DNA of 50,185 nucleotides, from assembly GCA_026417795.1 (NCBI GenBank), contig JAOACP010000008.1, positions 15,047 to 65,231 of the forward strand. Direction: 5' to 3'. The translations under genes and the position numbers were made by a program. Of this stretch, positions 16,936 through 50,185 are shown in pieces (position 1 is the stretch's first letter; every line of letters starts with the position of its first letter). The notes under the pieces are model-generated. The model was not told where the DNA came from. It did no database searches and saw only the letters and a list, made by a program, of their open reading frames with translations. This DNA is from Thermanaerothrix sp. GTDB taxonomy: Bacteria > Synergistota > Synergistia > Synergistales > Synergistaceae.

Positions 16936-17847
16936 CTAAAAGGCCAGGAAGTACATGAGGGTTACGTTGGCCGCCAACATGAACAACGCCACCGGCACCT
17001 GAGCCTTGATCACCCCGTTCTTGTCCTTTAGCTCCAAAAGAGCCGCCGGCACCACGTTAAAGTTTGCCGCCATGGGGGTCATGAGGGTCCCGCAGTAACC
17101 GGACAGCATGCCTATGACCCCCACCACGGAGGGGTCCGCACCCAAAGAAACCACCATAGGGATACCTATCCCCGTGGTAATCACCGCAAAGGCGGCAAAG
17201 GCGTTGCCCATAACCATGGTGAAGAGCGCCATCCCCACGCAGTAGGCCACCACCGCCAGCAGGGGCCTTCCGGAAGGGACCACCGACGACACCATGCCGG
17301 CAACCACGGCCCCCACGCCGGCCTTGTCAAACAAAAACCCAAGGGCCGCAAGAAATTGGGAAAGTATGGCAGACCATCCTATGGCATCCATAAGACGCCG
17401 ACCCTCTTCCACGGAAGCGTAAGGCCTCTCCCGAAGCATGAGCAGCGCCAAGATAAAGGCCGCCACGGTACCAACGCCAAGCCCCACCAGCGCTCCAAGA
17501 TCGGTGAGCTTTGCCACCAAAAAGGTCACCAAGGGAATGCACAGGGCTGGGATGAATATGCGGTTACCAAGCTTACGGGCCGCCTCCATCTTCTCCTCCC
17601 GGCTCTTCTCAGGATAGGAACCACGGCCCATTAGGTTGAAACTTCCTATCAAAGCCAACACAACCACCATAAGCCCGATCACCCCAGGGGGGACCAGCCC
17701 TCCCAGCAAAAACGTAAGCCCGTAGACGAACCAAAACATGCCGGTGCCAAGCCTTTTGGGGTTACCCCTGTCCATAAAGGACCTACCAGCGAAGACCAAC
17801 AGAATAAGACCCGCCAGGATGTACAGGTGATCCACCGACGGCTTCAT
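16936..17847 (-). CDS. DUF979 family membrane protein
   Basis: The 303-residue polytopic protein has about nine or ten hydrophobic segments, including a Gly-rich core (VVAGMVSSVVPSG) and GYCGTLMTPMAANFNVVPAALLEL near the C-terminus, a layout reminiscent of ion-coupled organic-anion permeases. The family is known to pair with DUF969 and with pcp. Its start overlaps the DUF969 stop by 4 nt (ATGA), so the two are probably subunits of one transporter. The substrate is unknown; pyroglutamate or its peptides is inferred from pcp 34 nt downstream. Confidence 0.88.
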   Translation of the reverse strand: MKPSVDHLYILAGLILLVFAGRSFMDRGNPKRLGTGMFWFVYGLTFLLGGLVPPGVIGLMVVVLALIGSFNLMGRGSYPEKSREEKMEAARKLGNRIFIPALCIPLVTFLVAKLTDLGALVGLGVGTVAAFILALLMLRERPYASVEEGRRLMDAIGWSAILSQFLAALGFLFDKAGVGAVVAGMVSSVVPSGRPLLAVVAYCVGMALFTMVMGNAFAAFAVITTGIGIPMVVSLGADPSVVGVIGMLSGYCGTLMTPMAANFNVVPAALLELKDKNGVIKAQVPVALFMLAANVTLMYFLAF

Positions 17848-18527
17848 TCAACCTCACCTCCCCTTGAAATCCCCGCAGCAGACGAGCGGTCAAACAGGCT
17901 GAACCTGACAAACGCCGCCACAAAGGCACAAACCGCGGTGGGAACGGCGTACATTCCCATCTTCATAAGGTCCACCGGATGCCCCGCCTGATCCATGACC
18001 CCCTTTATGAGAAGAAGCCCTCCGGAGGCTATGAATATGAGCTGGCCGAAGAAGTTACCGTAGTTCTCCGCCGAGGCCGCCATCGCCCTGACCTTATCGG
18101 AAAGCTGGGGGATCAAAGATCCATCCTTAGCCAGGGCCCCCTCCGCCATGGGAGCCACTATGGGCCTTACAAAGGTCGGATGCCCCCCCAGCTGAAGACC
18201 CAGCGCACAGGTAAGCTGACGGAACAGCATGTAAAGCAGCATGACCCGACCAGCGGTGGCACCCCTGAGGGACGACACGAACCTCTCTGCCTGTTCCCTC
18301 AGCCCGTGCCTCTCCAATATCCCGATCACAGGAAGCGTAAGCACGAAGAGGGACATGTACCGGTTCGTCACAAAGGCGTTACCCAGCGCCTCCAGTATCT
18401 CCCAAACCCCCATATGGGCCACCAGTCCAGTGGCCACTCCGGCCCCCAACACAACCAACAGGGGATTAAGACGAAGGCTCAACCCCAAAACCACTATCGC
18501 AACGCCCACAAGCTTCAACAAAGCCAT
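17844..18527 (-). CDS. DUF969 family membrane protein
   Basis: The 227-residue polytopic protein begins with two hydrophobic helices (LLKLVGVAIVVLGLSLRLNPLLVVLGAG) and has LQLGGHPTFVRPIVAPMAEGA in the middle and a charged C-terminus. The start at ATG 18527 follows a G-run. It lies 36 nt after the Crp/Fnr-type regulator and overlaps DUF979 by ATGA. DUF969 and DUF979 together resemble the two halves of a single larger permease split between genes. Function is unproven. Confidence 0.88.
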   Translation of the reverse strand: MALLKLVGVAIVVLGLSLRLNPLLVVLGAGVATGLVAHMGVWEILEALGNAFVTNRYMSLFVLTLPVIGILERHGLREQAERFVSSLRGATAGRVMLLYMLFRQLTCALGLQLGGHPTFVRPIVAPMAEGALAKDGSLIPQLSDKVRAMAASAENYGNFFGQLIFIASGGLLLIKGVMDQAGHPVDLMKMGMYAVPTAVCAFVAAFVRFSLFDRSSAAGISRGGEVE

Positions 18528-33891: not shown

Positions 33892-34896
33892 TTACCTTCC
33901 TCCCATGAGAAGGGTCATAACCGCCTTGGCGGTGTGCAGGCGGTTCTCCGCCTCGTCGTACACTATGGAGTGCGGCCCGTCGATCACCGCGTCCTCCACC
34001 TCGTTGTTCCGGTCCGCCGGCAGGGCGTGCATGTAAACCACGTCCTTGTCCGCCAGGGCCATCTTCTCCTCGGTGCACTTCCAGGACCTGTGGGCCATGA
34101 GCTTCTCGTCCACCACCTTCACGGCTCCCGCGGCGGTAAGGCCCGTCTGGTCGGTGACCCAGTTGCCCCAGTTCTTGGGGATCACTATGTGGGCGTTCCT
34201 GTAGGCGTACTCCTCGTCGTCGGTGACGGTCACGGTGCCGCCGTACTTCTCCGCGTTGGCCTTAGCCTGGGCGATGACCCAGTCGGGGAGCTCCCAGCCC
34301 TTGGGATGGGCCAGCACCACGTCCATGCCGTACCGGGGGAACAGCAGCACCTGGGAGACCGGCACGGAGATGGGCTTCTTGTGGCTCTCCGCGTAGGCCC
34401 AGATGATGGAGACCTTGAGCCGCTCAAGCTTGCCGAACTTCTCCTTCATGGTCATAAGGTCCGCCAGGGCCTGGAAGGGGTGGTACAGGTCGCACTGCAG
34501 GTTCATCACGGGAACCTTGGCCCACTTGGCCATCTCGGTGAGGTACTTGTTGCCGTAGCCCCAGTTGCAGTAACGGCAGGCGATGGCGTGCCCGAAGCTG
34601 GAGAGGATGATGGCGGTGTCCTTGGCGCTCTCGCCGTGGGAGACCTGCATGGTGCTGGAGTCAAGGTAGCCCGCGTGTCCTCCCAGCTGGGCAAGCCCCG
34701 CCTCCATGGAGTTCCGGGTCCTGGTGGACTGCTCGAAGAAGATGAGGAACATGGTCTTGTTCACAAGGTAAGGGGTGGGCTCACCCATGGCGAACTTCTT
34801 CTTCAGGTCGAAGGAGACCTCCAACATGGTCTCCACTTCTTCTTTGGTGAAGTCCTCCAGGTTGATGAAGTGGCGGTTCCTGAAAAAGCTCTGCAT
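33892..34896 (-). CDS. ygeW: YgeW-type carbamoyltransferase
   Basis: The 334-residue member of the aspartate/ornithine carbamoyltransferase superfamily has the carbamoyl-phosphate loop FFEQSTRTR (53-61), HPFQALAD (139-146) and HALPAD (290-295). The substrate-side SMEAG and QCD segments match YgeW rather than OTC or ATC. E. coli YgeW is knotted and longer (about 396 residues, from memory), so this form is compact. In purine clusters it probably removes a carbamoyl group from a ureido intermediate to make carbamoyl phosphate, a source of ATP. It lies downstream of ygeY by 45 nt and is followed by a terminator. Confidence 0.9.
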   Translation of the reverse strand: MQSFFRNRHFINLEDFTKEEVETMLEVSFDLKKKFAMGEPTPYLVNKTMFLIFFEQSTRTRNSMEAGLAQLGGHAGYLDSSTMQVSHGESAKDTAIILSSFGHAIACRYCNWGYGNKYLTEMAKWAKVPVMNLQCDLYHPFQALADLMTMKEKFGKLERLKVSIIWAYAESHKKPISVPVSQVLLFPRYGMDVVLAHPKGWELPDWVIAQAKANAEKYGGTVTVTDDEEYAYRNAHIVIPKNWGNWVTDQTGLTAAGAVKVVDEKLMAHRSWKCTEEKMALADKDVVYMHALPADRNNEVEDAVIDGPHSIVYDEAENRLHTAKAVMTLLMGGR

Positions 34897-43101: not shown

Positions 43102-44496
43102 CTACTTCATCCCAACCCCTATGCCCCTCTCCTCGGGGGTGCCGGGGATGAGGCTGTCGCAGGTGGCGGCGCATATGCCCGCCACCGCCATGGGGGTCTT
43201 GAGGATGGCCCAAACCATGCCCCCCAAGGTGGACAGGAACTGACCGTAAGCGGGGTTCATGAACAGCATCTGGTTCTTCTCCACCCACCCAGGCAGGCCC
43301 AAGGCCATAAGGAACGCAAAGCCCACCACCACCACGTTCCTCTGGCTTCCCATGTCCGCCCTCATGAGGGTCTGGATTCCCAATGCGCCTATCACGCCGA
43401 AAAGGGAGATGTAAGCGCCGCCTATCACCGGCGATGGCATGGTGGCTATAAGGCCTCCAAGCTTGCCGATGAAGCTGAGGAGTATGAGGATTACGGCACC
43501 GGTGCGGACCACGTAACGGCTGGCAACTCCCGTGAGCCCTATGAGCCCTATGTTCTCCGTGTAGGAGGTGGTGCCCACGGAACCGAAAACCCCCGAAAGG
43601 GCGCAGTTAAGCCCCTCGGCCCCTATGCCGCGGCTTATCATGTCAGGGGTCGGGTCGTCCAAACCGGACACGTAGGAACAGGAGTGGTAGTCCCCGATGG
43701 ACTCGATCATGACCGCGAAGAACCCCGCCAGCAGGGCGCCGAAGGCCAACAGGCTGAACTTGGGCATCCCCCAGGGGAAGACCACGTTGAACCGGAACCA
43801 TGGGGCGGAGGCCACCTTGCCAAGGTCGATGTACGCGGGATGCCCCGGGGCGAAGATGCCCATGAGGGAAGCGGCAAGGCAGATGAGATAAGCTATCACG
43901 ATGGAACCCAGGACCGCGAATATGTTGGCGTAACGGTTCTTGCTCACCAGGCTGAAGATCATTATGAGCGCCACCACCAGCAGTGATATGGGCCAGTAGT
44001 TGGCGGCGTTGAACTGGATGGCCACCGGCGCCAGGGAGAAGCCTATGGCCATGATGACCGGCCCTATGACCACCGGGGTTATGACCTTCCTGATGACGCC
44101 AACTATGCGGCTGTAGCCGATGAAGGACAGCAACAGCCCCCCAGCGATGAGACCGCCCCCCACGTACTGCATGACCACGTTGGGCCCCATGGCCTTGTAG
44201 GCCCCTATGATGGTCATGATGGAGGGGATGAAGCTGAAGCTGGACCCCTGGACTATCGGAAGGCCGGTACCCAGCTTGGGGTTGGTCTGGATGAGCGTGG
44301 CCACCCCCATGCCGAAGTACACGCAGGAGATGAACGCCCCTATCTGAAGGGTGTCCATCCCCATGGCGGGACCGAATATCAAGGGCACCAACGTGGTGGC
44401 GCCGAAAAGGGTCAACACGTGCTGGGCCCCCGCAAGGATCATTATGGGTAGCGGCGGCTTGTCGGGAAGACCGTACACTATCTGCTTCCTCGCCAT
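43102..44496 (-). CDS. NCS2/NAT uracil-xanthine-urate permease
   Basis: The product has about 464 residues from ATG 44496 (GGAGAGGGGG upstream). The polytopic NAT protein has the TM1 His in AGAQHVLTLFG, the TM8 segment MIESIGDYHSCSYVSG, and the signature TTSYTENIGLIGLTGVASRYV. The ESIGDY motif is of the broad type seen in nucleobase-ascorbate transporters, different from the NCS2 protein at 32379-33752, so the two probably prefer different bases. It lies between the three-gene Mo hydroxylase and the regulator, with terminators on both sides, and has its own promoter region. Confidence 0.88.
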   Translation of the reverse strand: MARKQIVYGLPDKPPLPIMILAGAQHVLTLFGATTLVPLIFGPAMGMDTLQIGAFISCVYFGMGVATLIQTNPKLGTGLPIVQGSSFSFIPSIMTIIGAYKAMGPNVVMQYVGGGLIAGGLLLSFIGYSRIVGVIRKVITPVVIGPVIMAIGFSLAPVAIQFNAANYWPISLLVVALIMIFSLVSKNRYANIFAVLGSIVIAYLICLAASLMGIFAPGHPAYIDLGKVASAPWFRFNVVFPWGMPKFSLLAFGALLAGFFAVMIESIGDYHSCSYVSGLDDPTPDMISRGIGAEGLNCALSGVFGSVGTTSYTENIGLIGLTGVASRYVVRTGAVILILLSFIGKLGGLIATMPSPVIGGAYISLFGVIGALGIQTLMRADMGSQRNVVVVGFAFLMALGLPGWVEKNQMLFMNPAYGQFLSTLGGMVWAILKTPMAVAGICAATCDSLIPGTPEERGIGVGMK

Positions 44497-44582
44497 ATCA
44501 TAAAACCCCCTCTCCAGTTCTCTTCCAAAGCCGTCCACCATCTACGCGCAAACCACGACCTAAAAAGCCCGCCATCACCACC

Positions 44583-44676: not shown

Positions 44677-47094
44677 CTAAAGCCACTCCTTTATGGCCTT
44701 CCGGTAGTTCTGCTCCTGCACGTAGGGGTACTCCCAAAGGTCGGTCTCCCCGTCCTTGGCCATCTGAACAGCCTTGTACACCCGCTCCTTGGAGAACGGA
44801 TAAGAGTGTATTCTGATGCCAAGGGCGTCGTAAAGGGCGTTGTCTATGGCCGGCGCGGGAGATATCATCGAGTGCTCCCCTATGCCCCGGTTGCCGTAGG
44901 GCGAAAGCTCCTCCGGCGTCTCCTCCCAGAAGATGTCCATGTTGTCCGGCAGGTCCATGGTGGTGCTCATCTTGTAGTCCGTGAAGTCCGGAGTGAGGAG
45001 CTTCCCGTTCTCGTCGTAGTACATGCCCTCCAAAAGGCCCGCGGATATGCCCTGGATGGTGCCGCCCTCTATCTGGCCCCTCACGTTGATCGGGCTTATG
45101 GCCTTGCCCACGTCGTAGCCCGCCGCCACGTTGTTCACCACCACCTCGCCGGTGGCGGGGTCAACCTCGATGTCGATCCCCACGGCACCCACGGTGAAGT
45201 GCACCACGCTCTTCGGCGACTGGCCGGTCTCCGGATCCGGGTACACCACGTCGGGGGGCACGAACGTGCCGGTGCCTATCACCGGACCTCCCACGTGCTC
45301 CCCGTCGGGCATGTGGAAGCCGTTCTGGATCCGCTCGTCCAACCTCTCCGCCTTGCCAAGCTTCCGGCACTTCACCACCCCGTGCTCTATGGTTATGGCC
45401 TCGGGTTCCACCTGCCAGTAACGGGAGAACAGGGCCAACACCTTCTCCCTGGCGTCCGCCGCGGCCCTCTTCACCGCCATGCCCATGGACCAGCAGGAAC
45501 GGCTCGCCACGGTCTGCCAGTCATAGGGGTGGCTCTGGGTGTCCGGGTAGTAGCACTTCACGCTCTCAATGGGAACCCCAAGCTCCTCACACACCATCTG
45601 GGCATAGGCGGTGTAGGCCCCCTGCCCCATGTCCATGGTGGCCGCCAACACCTCAACGGTGCCGTCACCCAACACCTTCACTATGGCGCTGCTGGACGCG
45701 TCCGCCGGCATGGCGGGGGCCTTTATGGCCAACGCAAAACCCTTGCCCCTCTTCCAGCCGGGACGCTTCGGGGGCTCCTTCTCCCCGAGCTTTATCTTCT
45801 CCACCACCTTGGACACTATCTTGTCCAGCGCGTGGTTGTGCATGGGCATGCCGGTGCAGGTGGGAAGCCCGGGCTTCAGCATGTTCTTGAGCCTGAACTC
45901 AATGGGATCCATGCCTATCTTGTTGGCGGCTATGTCTATTATGACCTCCATGGCTCCCATGAGCTCCGGAAGGCCGAATCCCCTGTAGGCCCCGCCGAAG
46001 GGCTTGTTCGTGTACACCGCGTAGCTGTCGGTCCACACGTTGGGCACGTAGTAGCAACCGGTGGAGGTGTAACCGGCGCTCCGCACCGGGTTGGCGCCGT
46101 ACTCCGCCGAAACCCCGGTGTCGAAGAAGAAGGTGTTCTTTATGGCCTGGATCTTGCCTTCCTTGTCTATCCCAAGCTTTATCTTCGCCACGTAACCCTG
46201 GCGCACCCAAGAGGATATGAGCACCTCCTCCCGGGGGATGTGGAGCTTCACCGGACGGCCCTTTATGTCCGGGTCCATGGCGGCGGACAGGCACATGGCC
46301 TCTATGGTCATCCCCGCCTTCCCTCCAAACCCGCCTCCGATGGGGGGGGCTATGACCCTTATCTTGTGAAGCGGATAGCCAAGACCCTTGGCTATTATCT
46401 CCCTCACCGCAAAGGCGGACTGGGCGGAGCTCCATATGGTAAGGTTCCCGGTGGCGGGGTCCTCCTGGCAGATGCAGCAGTGGGGCTCAAGGAACCCGTG
46501 GGCTATCTGCGGACAGGTCACCGCCTCCTCGATTATGTACTCGCACTCCGCAAAGGCCTTCTCCACGTCGCCCCGGCGGATCCTGAACCAGTTGGCTATG
46601 TTGGTCCCCGGCTGAGGCGTCAGGTACGGCACGTGCTCGTAGCTTCCAAGCTCCGGATGCACCAGCACGGAGTTGTCCGTGGCGGCCTTAACGGGATCGA
46701 ACACCGCCGGCAGCTCCCGGTACGTGGCCTTGACCTTCAGCATCCCCTCCTCCGCCGCCTCCTCGGTCTCCGCCACCACCAGCGCTATGGGCTCGCCAAC
46801 GTAGCGAACCTTCCACACCGCCAGCGGCGTGCGGTCCTGAAGGTACAGCCCGAAGTGGTGGACGAACATGTCGCCGGTTATAACCTTCACCACCCCGGGG
46901 ACCTTCATGGCCTCCGAGACGTCTATGGAGACTATCTCACCGTGGGCTATGGTGGACCTGGCGGCCCGGGCGTGCAAAAGCTCCGGACCGAACCGAAGGT
47001 CGTCCGCAAACCTTAAGGTACCCGCCGCCTTCTCCTCGTCGAACTTCCTGGTCACCCAGGTTCCAACCCCGTGGTTGGTAACGGTCTGCTTCAT
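44677..47094 (-). CDS. Xanthine dehydrogenase-type molybdopterin subunit
   Basis: The 805-residue large subunit shows IGGGFGGKAGM, GGAYRGFGLPE, MDMGQGAYT and the catalytic Glu in GNRGIGEHSMISPAPA. With the separate 2Fe-2S and FAD genes upstream it makes a three-subunit, XdhABC-like hydroxylase. ATG 47094 follows GAGGATCGCC, 13 nt after the FeS gene. The closest reaction is hypoxanthine/xanthine to urate, but other N-heterocycles such as nicotinate or aldehydes cannot be excluded. It is a third Mo enzyme in the same cluster, divergent from those at 22310 and 24625. Confidence 0.9.
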   Translation of the reverse strand: MKQTVTNHGVGTWVTRKFDEEKAAGTLRFADDLRFGPELLHARAARSTIAHGEIVSIDVSEAMKVPGVVKVITGDMFVHHFGLYLQDRTPLAVWKVRYVGEPIALVVAETEEAAEEGMLKVKATYRELPAVFDPVKAATDNSVLVHPELGSYEHVPYLTPQPGTNIANWFRIRRGDVEKAFAECEYIIEEAVTCPQIAHGFLEPHCCICQEDPATGNLTIWSSAQSAFAVREIIAKGLGYPLHKIRVIAPPIGGGFGGKAGMTIEAMCLSAAMDPDIKGRPVKLHIPREEVLISSWVRQGYVAKIKLGIDKEGKIQAIKNTFFFDTGVSAEYGANPVRSAGYTSTGCYYVPNVWTDSYAVYTNKPFGGAYRGFGLPELMGAMEVIIDIAANKIGMDPIEFRLKNMLKPGLPTCTGMPMHNHALDKIVSKVVEKIKLGEKEPPKRPGWKRGKGFALAIKAPAMPADASSSAIVKVLGDGTVEVLAATMDMGQGAYTAYAQMVCEELGVPIESVKCYYPDTQSHPYDWQTVASRSCWSMGMAVKRAAADAREKVLALFSRYWQVEPEAITIEHGVVKCRKLGKAERLDERIQNGFHMPDGEHVGGPVIGTGTFVPPDVVYPDPETGQSPKSVVHFTVGAVGIDIEVDPATGEVVVNNVAAGYDVGKAISPINVRGQIEGGTIQGISAGLLEGMYYDENGKLLTPDFTDYKMSTTMDLPDNMDIFWEETPEELSPYGNRGIGEHSMISPAPAIDNALYDALGIRIHSYPFSKERVYKAVQMAKDGETDLWEYPYVQEQNYRKAIKEWL

Positions 47095-47107
47095 GGCGAT
47101 CCTCCCC

Positions 47108-47590
47108 TCATGCTCCGCAGCAGGACATCATCTTCGCCGCCTTGCGCACCGCCCGGAATATGCCCTCGTAGCCGGTGCAGCGGCAAAGGTTACCCGAAAG
47201 GGCCACCTTCATCTCCTGGTCGGTGGGGTTCGGATTCCTCTTCAGAAGGTCGTACACCGCAAGGACCATCCCAGGGGTGCAGAAGCCGCACTGTATGGCC
47301 CCCTCCTCTATGAAGGCCTGCTGAACCGGGTGCAGCTTGCCGTCCTTGGACACCAGCCCCTCGGCGGTCATCACCTCCCGGCCCTCCGCCTCCTGGGCCA
47401 AAACCATGCAGGACTTCTGAAGCTTGCCGTCCATTATCACCGTGCAGGTGCCGCACTCACCCTCCTCACAGCCCCTCTTCACGCTGGTGACCCCGTAATC
47501 CCTGAGGGCCCTGAGAAGGGTGGTCCTGGGCTCCACTTCCATGGTCACAGGCCTTCCGTTCAAGGTGAAGCTTATGGTCTTCTTAGACAT
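47108..47590 (-). CDS. Mo-hydroxylase 2Fe-2S subunit
   Basis: The 160-residue protein has the two standard 2Fe-2S sites: a plant-ferredoxin-like set (RGCEEGECGTCT and SCMVL) and a helical set (IQCGFCTPGM and NLCRCTGYEG). The first site has CEEGEC where CGEGEC is usual. A C-terminal SCCGA tail adds two cysteines not needed for the clusters. It relays electrons from the Mo centre to the FAD subunit. It lies between the FAD gene (14 nt) and the Mo gene (13 nt), so the three are co-translated. Confidence 0.92.
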   Translation of the reverse strand: MSKKTISFTLNGRPVTMEVEPRTTLLRALRDYGVTSVKRGCEEGECGTCTVIMDGKLQKSCMVLAQEAEGREVMTAEGLVSKDGKLHPVQQAFIEEGAIQCGFCTPGMVLAVYDLLKRNPNPTDQEMKVALSGNLCRCTGYEGIFRAVRKAAKMMSCCGA

Positions 47591-47604
47591 CTGGAACAGC
47601 CCCC

Positions 47605-48459
47605 CTAAAGACTCTCAAGGCACTTACTTATCGCCGTGGCGGTGAGCTCCCCCACCATGGACAGGCGATACTCCCTGCTGGCCCGCACGTCGGTTATGGG
47701 GTTCACCGCCCCCTTGGCCTCCTCGCACACCCTGGCCATGAGCTGCGCATCCACCTGGGACGCCCCGTCCAGCAGCGCCTCCGCCCTCACCGCCCTCACG
47801 GGAACCGGCGAGACCGCCCCGTAGGACAGCCGGTACTTCCTGCCGGAAGGGCCGTCCGTCACAAGGCACGCCACCCCAACCTGCGCAAGGTCCAGGGCGT
47901 TGCGGCGGCCAAGCTTGATGTAACAGCCCGCCGAGGGCCCCTCAGGAACCGGAAGGGTTATCCTGGTCACCACCTCCCCGGGCTTAAGCACGTTGCGCCT
48001 GGGGCCGGTTATGAACTCAAGGATCGGAACCTTCCTCACCCCCTCATGGGAGGCCACGTGGACGACCCCCTCGTAAACGCAGGTGGGGGGGATCATGTCC
48101 CCGGAGGGAACCGAGGAGCATATGTTGCCCACGTAGGTGGCCTTGTTCCTTATGATGTGGTCCGAATGGGACATGGCGGCGTCCACCAGGGCGGGGTAAA
48201 GCTCCCTGGCCTTTGAAAAGTACGCCAGCTCGTTCAGCGTCACACAGGCCCCCACCGACAGCCCCTCTTCAGGGTTAAATTGAATCCCGTGAAGCTCGTC
48301 TATGAGGCTCAGATCCACCACCAGCTTGGGCTGGACGGCGTGCTTCTTCATCCAAACCAGAAGGTCCGTGCCGCCGTTCTTGGCCCAAGCCCCCTCCTTC
48401 TGGAGAAGCTTCATGGCCTCCGCCAAGGTGGCGGGCCGCTCTAGCTCAAAGGACAGCAT
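47605..48459 (-). CDS. Mo-hydroxylase FAD subunit
   Basis: The 284-residue CoxM/XdhB-type FAD protein has the flavin-binding GAWAKNGGTDLLVWMK in the N-terminal part and IIRNKATYVGNICSSVPSGDMIPP in the middle, where xanthine dehydrogenases have TxGGN. YVGN here lacks one of the two glycines. Its C-terminal domain starts near FITGPRRNVLKPGE. It passes electrons to NAD+ or another acceptor. It is first of the three-gene set, immediately after the terminator at 48480-48513. Confidence 0.9.
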   Translation of the reverse strand: MLSFELERPATLAEAMKLLQKEGAWAKNGGTDLLVWMKKHAVQPKLVVDLSLIDELHGIQFNPEEGLSVGACVTLNELAYFSKARELYPALVDAAMSHSDHIIRNKATYVGNICSSVPSGDMIPPTCVYEGVVHVASHEGVRKVPILEFITGPRRNVLKPGEVVTRITLPVPEGPSAGCYIKLGRRNALDLAQVGVACLVTDGPSGRKYRLSYGAVSPVPVRAVRAEALLDGASQVDAQLMARVCEEAKGAVNPITDVRASREYRLSMVGELTATAISKCLESL

Positions 48460-48522: not shown

Positions 48523-49326
48523 TTATTCCTCGGCGAAAGCCACGATGCGGCTTATGCAGGACTCGCCGCCCTCAAAGCGCCAGGGGAAGCAGCCGATGGT
48601 GACCCGCTTGCCGGAGAGAAGGTCGATGTCACCGCCAAGGCACTCGGCGTGGATTATGTTGTGGGGGAACAGGTCGATGTGCATGAGCTGGTAGTCCTCG
48701 GGAGGGAAGAAGTCGTCCAAGCCCTTGCCGTACTTCTCCTTGAGGTGCTTGTCCGCCATCTTGGCGTGATAGGGCATCCACTCCCGGATCTTGGTGTTCA
48801 TGGGGTGGTCGGCGGAACCGCAGTCCACGCCTATCCACTTTATCTTCCTCTTCTTGCACCACTGGGCGAACTCGGAGGTGGGGCCGGGGTGCATCACCAT
48901 GTACCTCACCTCGTCCGCCTCGGGCTGGTCCCAACCGTAGCGGTGGTAGCCGGTGTTGATGATGAGGATGTCCCCGTCGTGAACCTCCGCCCGCTCCTCG
49001 ATGTCCTTGCTGGTGTAGATGCCGTAGTCCTCCGCGATGTCCCTTATGTCCACCACCACACCGGGGCCCACCAGGTAATCCTTCAGCTCGAGGCTGGCTA
49101 TGTCGCAGCCGTGGGTGCAGAAGTGAAGGGGACCGTCCAGGTGGGTGCCCACGTGGTTGGAGTGGGTGAGAAGCTGCCCGTTGGCCCCGTTGGGGGCAAG
49201 GCGCTTGAAGAACTTTATCTGCAGCGGCTCGTAGGTGGGCCACGCGGGGGTCAGATGGCTTATGGGGATCGTGAGGTCGTAAACCTTTATGTTGCCCCAG
49301 TTCTTAAGTTCCCAGTTGGCGCTCAT
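48523..49326 (-). CDS. Cyclase-family (kynurenine formamidase-like) hydrolase
   Basis: The 267-residue metal-dependent hydrolase has the family signature SNHVGTHLDGPLHF, in which the His and Asp residues bind metal. Further conserved parts are DILIINTGYHRYG, WIGVDCGSADHP and HAECLGGDIDLLSG. Members cleave cyclic or N-acyl amides (kynurenine formamidase, isatin hydrolase). Between AllG-like and Mo-hydroxylase genes it could open a purine-derived lactam ring. It starts at ATG 49326 after GAGGAGG. The partner gene on the right is 98 nt away. Confidence 0.88.
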   Translation of the reverse strand: MSANWELKNWGNIKVYDLTIPISHLTPAWPTYEPLQIKFFKRLAPNGANGQLLTHSNHVGTHLDGPLHFCTHGCDIASLELKDYLVGPGVVVDIRDIAEDYGIYTSKDIEERAEVHDGDILIINTGYHRYGWDQPEADEVRYMVMHPGPTSEFAQWCKKRKIKWIGVDCGSADHPMNTKIREWMPYHAKMADKHLKEKYGKGLDDFFPPEDYQLMHIDLFPHNIIHAECLGGDIDLLSGKRVTIGCFPWRFEGGESCISRIVAFAEE

Positions 49327-49362
49327 GTTCTATTCCTCCTCTTAACTTTTATTTGTACGCAA

Positions 49363-49379
49363 AAGCCCTAAGGGCTTTA
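49363..49379 (-). terminator. Small hairpin between AllG-like and cyclase genes
   Basis: AAAGCCC and GGGCTTT arms with a 3-nt loop are followed on the minus strand by TGCG. It is a weak terminator candidate. Confidence 0.35.
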
Positions 49380-49424
49380 CCGCCCGATCGCTGATCATCC
49401 CAGCTCAACGCCGATCAAGGGGGC

Positions 49425-50185
49425 TTACTCCCCGTACTTCTCCACGAAGGCCTCCGCCGCCTTTATGAACGCCTCCGAGGGCATGCGGACTATGCCGGCC
49501 CCCACCTGGCCGCGGCCCGGCTCCTTGTGGGCCGCTCCGGTATCCAGGACCGGTGTTATCCCCGTCTCCGCCACCTTGAGGATGTCTATCCCCGTGGGGG
49601 TGCCCCGGAAGTTGAGGGACGGGATGGAGTAGACGTTGTTCTCCCCAAGGGTTATCTCGTACATCTCCAAGGTGTACTTCGCCGCGTCCTCCGGCGTTCC
49701 GCCGATGAACTGCACTATGGCCGGCGCCGCCGCCAGGGCGAACCCGCCTACCCCCAAGGTCTCCATTATGGCGCTGTCCCCGATGTCCCGGTTCACGTCG
49801 TCCTTGGTGTAACCGGGGAACAGCAGCACGTCCGGCAGCGCCGCCTCGCAGGTGAACCAACGCTTCCCAAGCCCCGACACCTGGATCCCCATCTCGGTGC
49901 CGTTCCGGGCCATCACGGTCACCAGCGACGAACCCTCCACCTCATGGGCCGCCTCGGTGCTGGCCTTGGCCGCCGCCATGGCTATGTTGAGGAAGAAGTG
50001 GTCGTTCTTGTCTATAAACCTCACCACCTCCGCCAGGTCCCGGCAGTTGGGGGCCGCCTCGATCATGAAGGGCATGACCGCCCTTAGGAACAGGCTGGTC
50101 CCAGCCTTGTTGCGGTTGTGCATCTCGTCCCCCATGTGCAGCGCCTGGGCTATTATGTTCTTTACGTCTATGCCCCCCTGCACCT
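49425..50185 (-). CDS. AllG/YlbE-family (DUF1116) protein, N-terminus beyond window
   Basis: The frame is open to the right edge, with about 253 C-terminal residues visible out of roughly 450-480 expected. Diagnostic segments are GDEMHNRNKAGTSLFLR, MARNGTEMGIQVSG, GVGGFALAAAPAIVQFIGGT, and TGAAHKEPGRGQVGAGIVRMP near the end. The DUF1116 family includes YlbE/AllG and YahG. AllG with AllF (FdrA) and AllH has been linked to oxamate carbamoyltransferase in anaerobic allantoin use. Here it would complete a purine route to carbamoyl phosphate and ATP. AllF and AllH homologues and a carbamate kinase would be expected just to the right. Confidence 0.85.
   Translation of the reverse strand, partial: VQGGIDVKNIIAQALHMGDEMHNRNKAGTSLFLRAVMPFMIEAAPNCRDLAEVVRFIDKNDHFFLNIAMAAAKASTEAAHEVEGSSLVTVMARNGTEMGIQVSGLGKRWFTCEAALPDVLLFPGYTKDDVNRDIGDSAIMETLGVGGFALAAAPAIVQFIGGTPEDAAKYTLEMYEITLGENNVYSIPSLNFRGTPTGIDILKVAETGITPVLDTGAAHKEPGRGQVGAGIVRMPSEAFIKAAEAFVEKYGE

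Follow-up and report, generated by a model that had tools for sequence, protein, structure and literature searches.

What a cyclase-family hydrolase and an AllG-like protein do together, at the edge of a purine gene island, is the question raised by the stretch of Thermanaerothrix sp. DNA analyzed here (50,185 nt, hereafter the window; G000:C8:15047-65231). The first-pass annotation had attached this pair to the purine genes and suggested an allantoin-like branch. Pfam confirmed the pair itself (PF04199 and PF06545), but the companion genes point to pyrimidines and malonate rather than to purines. The module to which the two genes belong is probably a system for the anaerobic oxidative breakdown of pyrimidines, in which uracil would be degraded via barbiturate and energy conserved as carbamoyl phosphate.

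The cyclase and AllG genes belong to a gene block split between two contigs

Contig C8 stops where the window stops, truncating AllG, and the remaining piece covers positions 80-215 of PF06545. The missing front, covering positions 1-80, is the last gene of contig C10. The final 19 bases of this contig, CTGTCTCTTATACACATCT (L003:18069-18087), we take to be Nextera sequencing adapter-like. Once these bases are removed, C8 and C10 overlap by 8 bases, and the joined AllG, 418 aa in length, aligns with that of the closed same-genus genome G001 over 1,256 bases with zero gaps. Thus, the split is an assembly artefact, and the adapter-like tail is assembly contamination that divides AllG between C10 and C8. 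In a second closed genome, G002, the AllG frame (L009:3506-4764) is broken by two single-base insertions, reflecting either sequencing error or a decaying gene.

The cyclase and AllG are part of a block of about 11 genes in the same direction that runs from C10 into the window, in the order carbon-nitrogen hydrolase, CoA-transferase, AllH, FdrA, a 63-aa linker, AllG, cyclase, a three-subunit molybdenum hydroxylase (XDH1), and an NCS2 permease (Table 1). The AllF/FdrA and AllH genes, for which the first-pass annotation had proposed to look beyond the window, lie directly upstream of AllG on C10. The order is identical in G001 and G002, where the block is followed by a YheO-type regulator, YgeX, SsnA, YgfK, YgeY and onward. 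The 63-aa open reading frame contains VNIGVEQFAQDLTAQNVPVVQMDWRPPAAG, as read from the sequence; a segment of this type forms the C-terminus of E. coli FdrA, the N-terminus of a longer (~470 aa) AllG in many Firmicutes, and, in at least 23 loci, a separate open reading frame preceding AllG. To judge from the sequences, this segment appears to be a fourth part of the enzyme that can shift between genes. For the molybdenum subunit of XDH1, the nearest solved structures are 4-hydroxybenzoyl-CoA reductase, 6-hydroxypseudooxynicotine dehydrogenase, CO dehydrogenase and quinoline oxidoreductase, with xanthine dehydrogenases ranking behind, and the 'xanthine' label is therefore only generic.

Elsewhere in the genome, away from the module, we found a carbamate kinase (Table 1) and an MmdA-type carboxyltransferase (869 bits, below cut-off). 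A search of the window genome for cytosine deaminase returned none, and the module in this organism contains neither a malonate nor a malonyl-CoA decarboxylase.

Table 1. Genes of the module and associated features. Plain numbers are window positions; L003 coordinates refer to the end of contig C10.
Feature	Position	Strand or direction	Remarks
PucR regulator	L003:11065-12672	opposite to module	
Carbon-nitrogen hydrolase	L003:12890-13801	as AllG	
Class III CoA-transferase	L003:13798-14994	as AllG	
AllH	L003:15002-15718	as AllG	above Pfam cut-off
FdrA/AllF	L003:15667-17301	as AllG	
63-aa linker ORF	L003:17301-17492	as AllG	
AllG-like, 5' part	L003:17565-18065		167 aa
AllG-like (DUF1116), 3' part	49425-50185	(-)	252 aa up to contig end; PF06545 199 bits
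Cyclase-family (PF04199) metal-dependent hydrolase	48523-49326	(-)	267 aa; proposed barbiturate ring-opening enzyme; Pfam 119 bits (cut-off 23)
XDH1, FAD subunit	47605-48459	(-)	NCBIfam XdhB-like, below cut-off; 3' of cyclase in G001, G002 and G006
XDH1, iron-sulfur subunit	47108-47590	(-)	95-99% identical and in the same place in G001/G002
XDH1, molybdenum subunit	44677-47094	(-)	805 aa; proposed uracil 6-hydroxylase; below all curated XDH cut-offs
NCS2-family nucleobase permease	43102-44541	(-)	TIGR00801 226 bits, below cut-off 292; last gene of proposed module
Carbamate kinase	G000:C6:20832-21767		421 bits, cut-off 358

The cyclase resembles ring-opening hydrolases

The window cyclase carries the metal motif HxGTHxDxxxH together with a second-site His/Glu, and residues H58/H62/D64/H68 and H216/E228 are invariant across an alignment of 28 cyclase homologues; from kynurenine formamidase, we presume that these residues are metal ligands. 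The AlphaFold model (pLDDT 81, with several metal-motif residues in low-confidence stretches) matched 3krv, 5nmp and 4m8d in Foldseek (E 1e-13 to 1e-12), that is, the fold of isatin hydrolases and kynurenine formamidases, which also have the HxGTHxDxxxH motif. Identity to these solved members is only ~20%, however, and the arylformamidase model scores just 56 bits where its cut-off is 223. Across three species of the genus, the cyclase is 97-99% identical, above most of its neighbors. The proposal of the first-pass annotation that the cyclase is a candidate ring-opening hydrolase is credible.

AllG lies outside the allantoin clade

The E. coli oxamic transcarbamylase AllFGH (FdrA-YlbE-YlbF) has proven activity in the conversion of oxalurate to oxamate and carbamoyl phosphate (PMC11326118). 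The module shares with it the same three families in adjacent genes, with AllG 46% and FdrA 38% identical over almost the full length. It differs in several respects: the linker, a ~50-residue 'VNIG...DWRPP'-type segment in E. coli FdrA, is a separate gene here; the oxalurate on which the E. coli enzyme acts is one carbon shorter than the ureidomalonate proposed here; and the module lacks allantoin genes while containing a cyclase, a hydroxylase and acid-processing genes. We compared 67 AllG sequences in a maximum-likelihood phylogeny, where the E. coli protein and the allantoin-linked ones make up a clade of their own with 100% support, which leaves out the window AllG. The latter groups, also with 100% support, with AllG of other Synergistota that carry the cyclase module, although deeper joins are weaker. 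In some Clostridia (L144:9414, L145:9198), FdrA and AllG are fused into a protein of ~1,000 aa, found in a separate cluster with carbamate kinase and grouping with allantoin-type AllG.

AllD had no match, and AllC no credible match (best in G000 18 bits against 598), in the window genome or its closed same-genus relatives, with E. coli passing as the positive control in both searches; among the matches listed, AllA-AllE, Gcl and YgfK were found in none of the 50 cyclase loci longer than 18 kb. The allantoin branch put forward by the first-pass annotation was rejected on two grounds, the position of AllG in the tree and the missing AllC and AllD, and the module is very probably not such a branch.

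An oxalurate route, in line with the first-pass annotation, would start with a purine or hydantoin product that becomes parabanate or oxalurate; the cyclase would make oxalurate, AllFGH would split it into oxamate and carbamoyl phosphate, and both oxamate and oxalate would be processed by the hydrolase and CoA-transferase. The proven chemistry of E. coli AllFGH fits this scheme, as do the resemblance of the cyclase model to isatin hydrolase, whose target ring is cleaved beside a keto group, and that of the module CoA-transferase to oxalate CoA-transferases (369 bits with the CoA:oxalate CoA-transferase model, below cut-off; best PDB match YfdE). The position of AllG outside the allantoin clade, the linkage of malonate decarboxylase and malonyl-CoA-decarboxylase-type genes in relatives, and a genome that lacks AllD, a credible AllC and an oxalyl-CoA decarboxylase (best 194 bits, cut-off 739) argue against it, and we regard this route as unlikely. 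Oxalate fermentation by a CoA-transferase and oxalyl-CoA decarboxylase was likewise rejected, the decarboxylase scoring over its cut-off in none of 11 carriers.

The neighboring urate genes appear to form a separate pathway

The window block at ~20940-42804 encodes YgeX, SsnA, YgfK and YgeY above curated cut-offs and a HyuA above the D-hydantoinase/dihydropyrimidinase cut-off, and corresponds to a pathway for reductive uric acid breakdown described in 2025 (XdhD-YgfK-SsnA-HyuA-YgeW-YgeY-YgeX; PMC12507026), whose genes fill it. This block appears to be separate from the cyclase module. In other Synergistota (G006, G025, G034), the AllFGH-cyclase-XDH1-NCS2 module, permease included, occurs without urate genes in the fetched stretches; its adjacency to urate genes was seen in the window genus only, which speaks against the tie to purines drawn in the first-pass annotation. 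Because the module occurs elsewhere without urate genes and YgfK is absent from all 50 long cyclase loci among the matches listed, we assigned XDH1 (44677-48459) and the permease at 43102 to the cyclase module. A role of XDH1 in urate breakdown was considered and rejected, given that it travels with the cyclase module in other genera.

The urate block also contains a carbamoyltransferase (33892-34896, (-)), ~99% identical between species, that is nearer to ornithine carbamoyltransferase than to YgeW but scores below both cut-offs. With this OTC-type carbamoyltransferase nearby and carbamate kinase elsewhere in the genome, the two carbamoyl-phosphate-yielding steps suggested in the first-pass annotation are plausible. 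Paired DUF979 and DUF969 genes lie near the purine block (16936-18527, (-)).

The module recurs across phyla, in some relatives with malonate- and pyrimidine-linked genes

Scanning genome contigs with the cyclase alignment yielded at least 582 confirmed stretches, and the 80 named loci among the matches listed come from Synergistota, Bacillota, Chloroflexota, Spirochaetota, Elusimicrobiota, Atribacterota and others. We counted companions in the 50 loci longer than 18 kb, which were picked by cyclase similarity and include related species that are not independent, so that the counts describe this cyclase group. Among these matches listed, AllG was present in 49 of 50, FdrA in 47 and AllH in 44, and in 65 of all loci listed AllG immediately precedes the cyclase, both genes lying on one strand; the pairing of cyclase and AllG is far beyond chance. 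The same 50 listed loci contained an XDH molybdenum subunit within 10 kb (36/50), NCS2 (33/50), PucR (26/50), a carbon-nitrogen hydrolase or amidase (16/50), a CoA-transferase (15/50), carbamate kinase (9/50), a cytosine deaminase-like protein (8/50) and full-length MmdA (4/50). Several gut loci (L074, L076, L080) had no hydroxylase within reach.

The gene sets linked to the module in individual relatives bear on its product. In two Firmicutes MAGs (L024 and L025), the run hydroxylase-permease-PucR-AllH-FdrA-AllG-cyclase is followed, in L024 on the same strand and with an identical layout in L025, by a malonate decarboxylase operon. In L024, MdcA (884 bits, cut-off 789), MdcD (312, cut-off 278) and MdcG (100.8, cut-off 99.7) score above, and MdcE (221, cut-off 237) and MdcB (264, cut-off 282) slightly below, their thresholds, and a Na+-pump decarboxylase subunit reaches 500 bits (cut-off 191). 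Carboxydothermus islandicus (L022) encodes, in one run, AllH, FdrA, AllG, CoA-transferase, cyclase, carbamate kinase, carbon-nitrogen hydrolase, an MmdA-type carboxyltransferase (755 bits, below the cut-off of 999), hydroxylase and permease, together with a Na+-pump decarboxylase beta subunit (514 bits, cut-off 191), and Anaerotruncus loci (L093, L096) contain CoA-transferase, amidase and MmdA-type genes. Linkage to malonate decarboxylase was seen in these two related MAGs only, and linkage to MmdA-type genes in four loci, among the matches listed. In G006, permease and hydroxylase flank a gene for a bona fide cytosine deaminase (511 bits, cut-off 483). Taken with the chemistry, the malonate decarboxylase operon, the L022 and Anaerotruncus gene sets and the linkage of cytosine deaminase suggest that the module yields a three-carbon diacid from a pyrimidine.

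Among the listed 50 loci, the CoA-transferase (15 loci) never occurs together with a pair of acyltransferase-like and thiolase-like proteins (19 loci), and the malonate decarboxylase loci have neither, a mutual exclusion expected of alternatives for one step. The pair that replaces the CoA-transferase in 19 of the 50, including L038:8397-10264 and many Clostridium and Chloroflexota, consists of a 224-aa protein (p224), GNAT-like by its predicted structure and as a rule beside its partner, and a 398-aa thiolase-like protein, apparently without the usual nucleophilic cysteine. A cytosine-deaminase-like amidohydrolase, ~69% identical across phyla, accompanies the module in L071, L074, L076, L080, L090, L057 and L012; its substrate may differ from cytosine, since the L012 copy scores below the cytosine deaminase cut-off.

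A proposed route from uracil through barbiturate

Directly observed were the genes present, their order and conservation, the families of their proteins and, in relatives, their genomic linkage to cytosine deaminase, malonate decarboxylase and malonyl-CoA-decarboxylase-type enzymes; from these we infer each substrate and reaction of the following route. The NCS2 permease would import uracil, which the molybdenum hydroxylase would oxidize at carbon 6 to barbiturate; the cyclase would open the barbiturate ring to ureidomalonate, and the predicted FdrA/AllG/AllH complex would split ureidomalonate with phosphate into malonamate and carbamoyl phosphate, in the way that the E. coli complex acts on oxalurate. 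Carbamate kinase could form ATP from the carbamoyl phosphate. The carbon-nitrogen hydrolase would convert malonamate to malonate, freeing ammonia, and the CoA-transferase would turn malonate into malonyl-CoA, which would then be decarboxylated. Hydroxylation of uracil at C6 gives barbiturate, and opening of this ring gives ureidomalonate, which is oxalurate with one additional CH2. Against the uracil reading stand the amidase, near only 16 of the 50 loci, the hydroxylase missing from several gut loci, and the acyltransferase/thiolase-like loci, which it leaves unexplained. The lack of a cytosine deaminase match in the window genome and of a malonate or malonyl-CoA decarboxylase in its module also counts against it, as do the small numbers of listed loci linked to malonate decarboxylase (two) and MmdA-type genes (four).

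The same chemistry could serve another pyrimidine, for instance, thymine, degraded via 5-methylbarbiturate to methylmalonate. MmdA-family enzymes are named for methylmalonyl-CoA, and, in aerobes, uracil and thymine are both substrates of the uracil/thymine dehydrogenases. Nevertheless, the malonate decarboxylase of L024 is named for malonate, and cytosine deaminase yields uracil; a pyrimidine other than uracil seems quite unlikely.

Oxidative pyrimidine breakdown is known to pass through barbiturate, and the aerobic Rhodococcus pathway (uracil/thymine dehydrogenase, barbiturase, ureidomalonase; PMC3758960) includes barbiturate, ureidomalonate and malonate, all of which are also proposed for the uracil route described here. 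In Rhodococcus, however, the ring opener has the AtzD/barbiturase fold, whereas here it would be an isatin-hydrolase-like cyclase, and water splits ureidomalonate into malonate and urea, whereas here phosphate would yield malonamate and carbamoyl phosphate. The open-access papers searched on barbiturate, ureidomalonate and malonamate in anaerobes do not describe such a route, an absence that, given the open-access scope, is weak evidence.

On the sequence data, we lean towards a widespread anaerobic pyrimidine pathway in many phyla, including gut Clostridia, in which the cyclase would be a new barbiturase and AllFGH-family enzymes would conserve energy from ureidomalonate as carbamoyl phosphate, leaving malonamate and malonate. 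If so, an ATP-yielding anaerobic route would join the reductive, oxidative, Rut and URC routes of pyrimidine breakdown, a new barbiturase family would be named, and a function could be given to the many DUF1116/FdrA/DUF2877 gene clusters that currently bear the label 'oxamate carbamoyltransferase'. With relatives of the cyclase in at least 582 stretches, some from gut bacteria (Flavonifractor, Anaerotruncus), the pathway would then bear on the handling of uracil and related compounds in the gut. A recent study of nitrifiers took the presence of allFGH to prove that allantoin or oxalurate is used (PMC12625717); the proposed pathway would caution against such a reading.

Other ring openers and carbamoyltransferases in related loci

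If the cyclase opens a cyclic ureide, the AtzD/barbiturase family, which is unrelated to it, might take its place. Searching 398 genomes of the Carboxydothermus phylum for PF09663 (AtzD/barbiturase) identified the family in 12, of which 11 neighborhoods were fetched. An AtzD/TrzD cyanurate-barbiturate hydrolase occurs with FdrA/AllH in 9 of the 11 and with AllG in 8, with no cyclase there; conversely, the 50 cyclase loci among the matches listed had no match to the AtzD family. This swap supports a cyclic ureide opener feeding AllFGH, not barbiturate as such. The best AtzD match has a near-identical counterpart in PDB, the Moorella cyanuric acid hydrolase, of which barbiturate is described as an inhibitor, and we rejected Moorella AtzD as direct proof of barbiturate since it matches this characterized enzyme.

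The AtzD loci also suggest a cyanurate/biuret route, in which the module would open a triazine-like ring and AllFGH would phosphorolyse carboxybiuret or biuret, the Moorella-type AtzD beside AllFGH being the evidence for it. Yet, CoA-transferase, carbon-nitrogen hydrolase and MmdA are all absent from the AtzD loci, and the hydroxylase is present in 1 of 9, as would fit a substrate that offers no carbon chain for salvage, whereas the cyclase loci carry such genes; triazine carbon leaves as CO2, requiring no malonyl chemistry. For the cyclase module, this route is very unlikely. At least some AllFGH homologues may nonetheless have carboxybiuret or biuret, and not ureidomalonate, as their substrate, because the partner in Moorella is a characterized cyanuric acid hydrolase.

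On two short contigs (L028:956-2938, L029:2534-4244), with AllFGH not in reach, an OTC-family carbamoyltransferase lies directly 3' of the cyclase, a hint that it may possibly replace AllFGH there.
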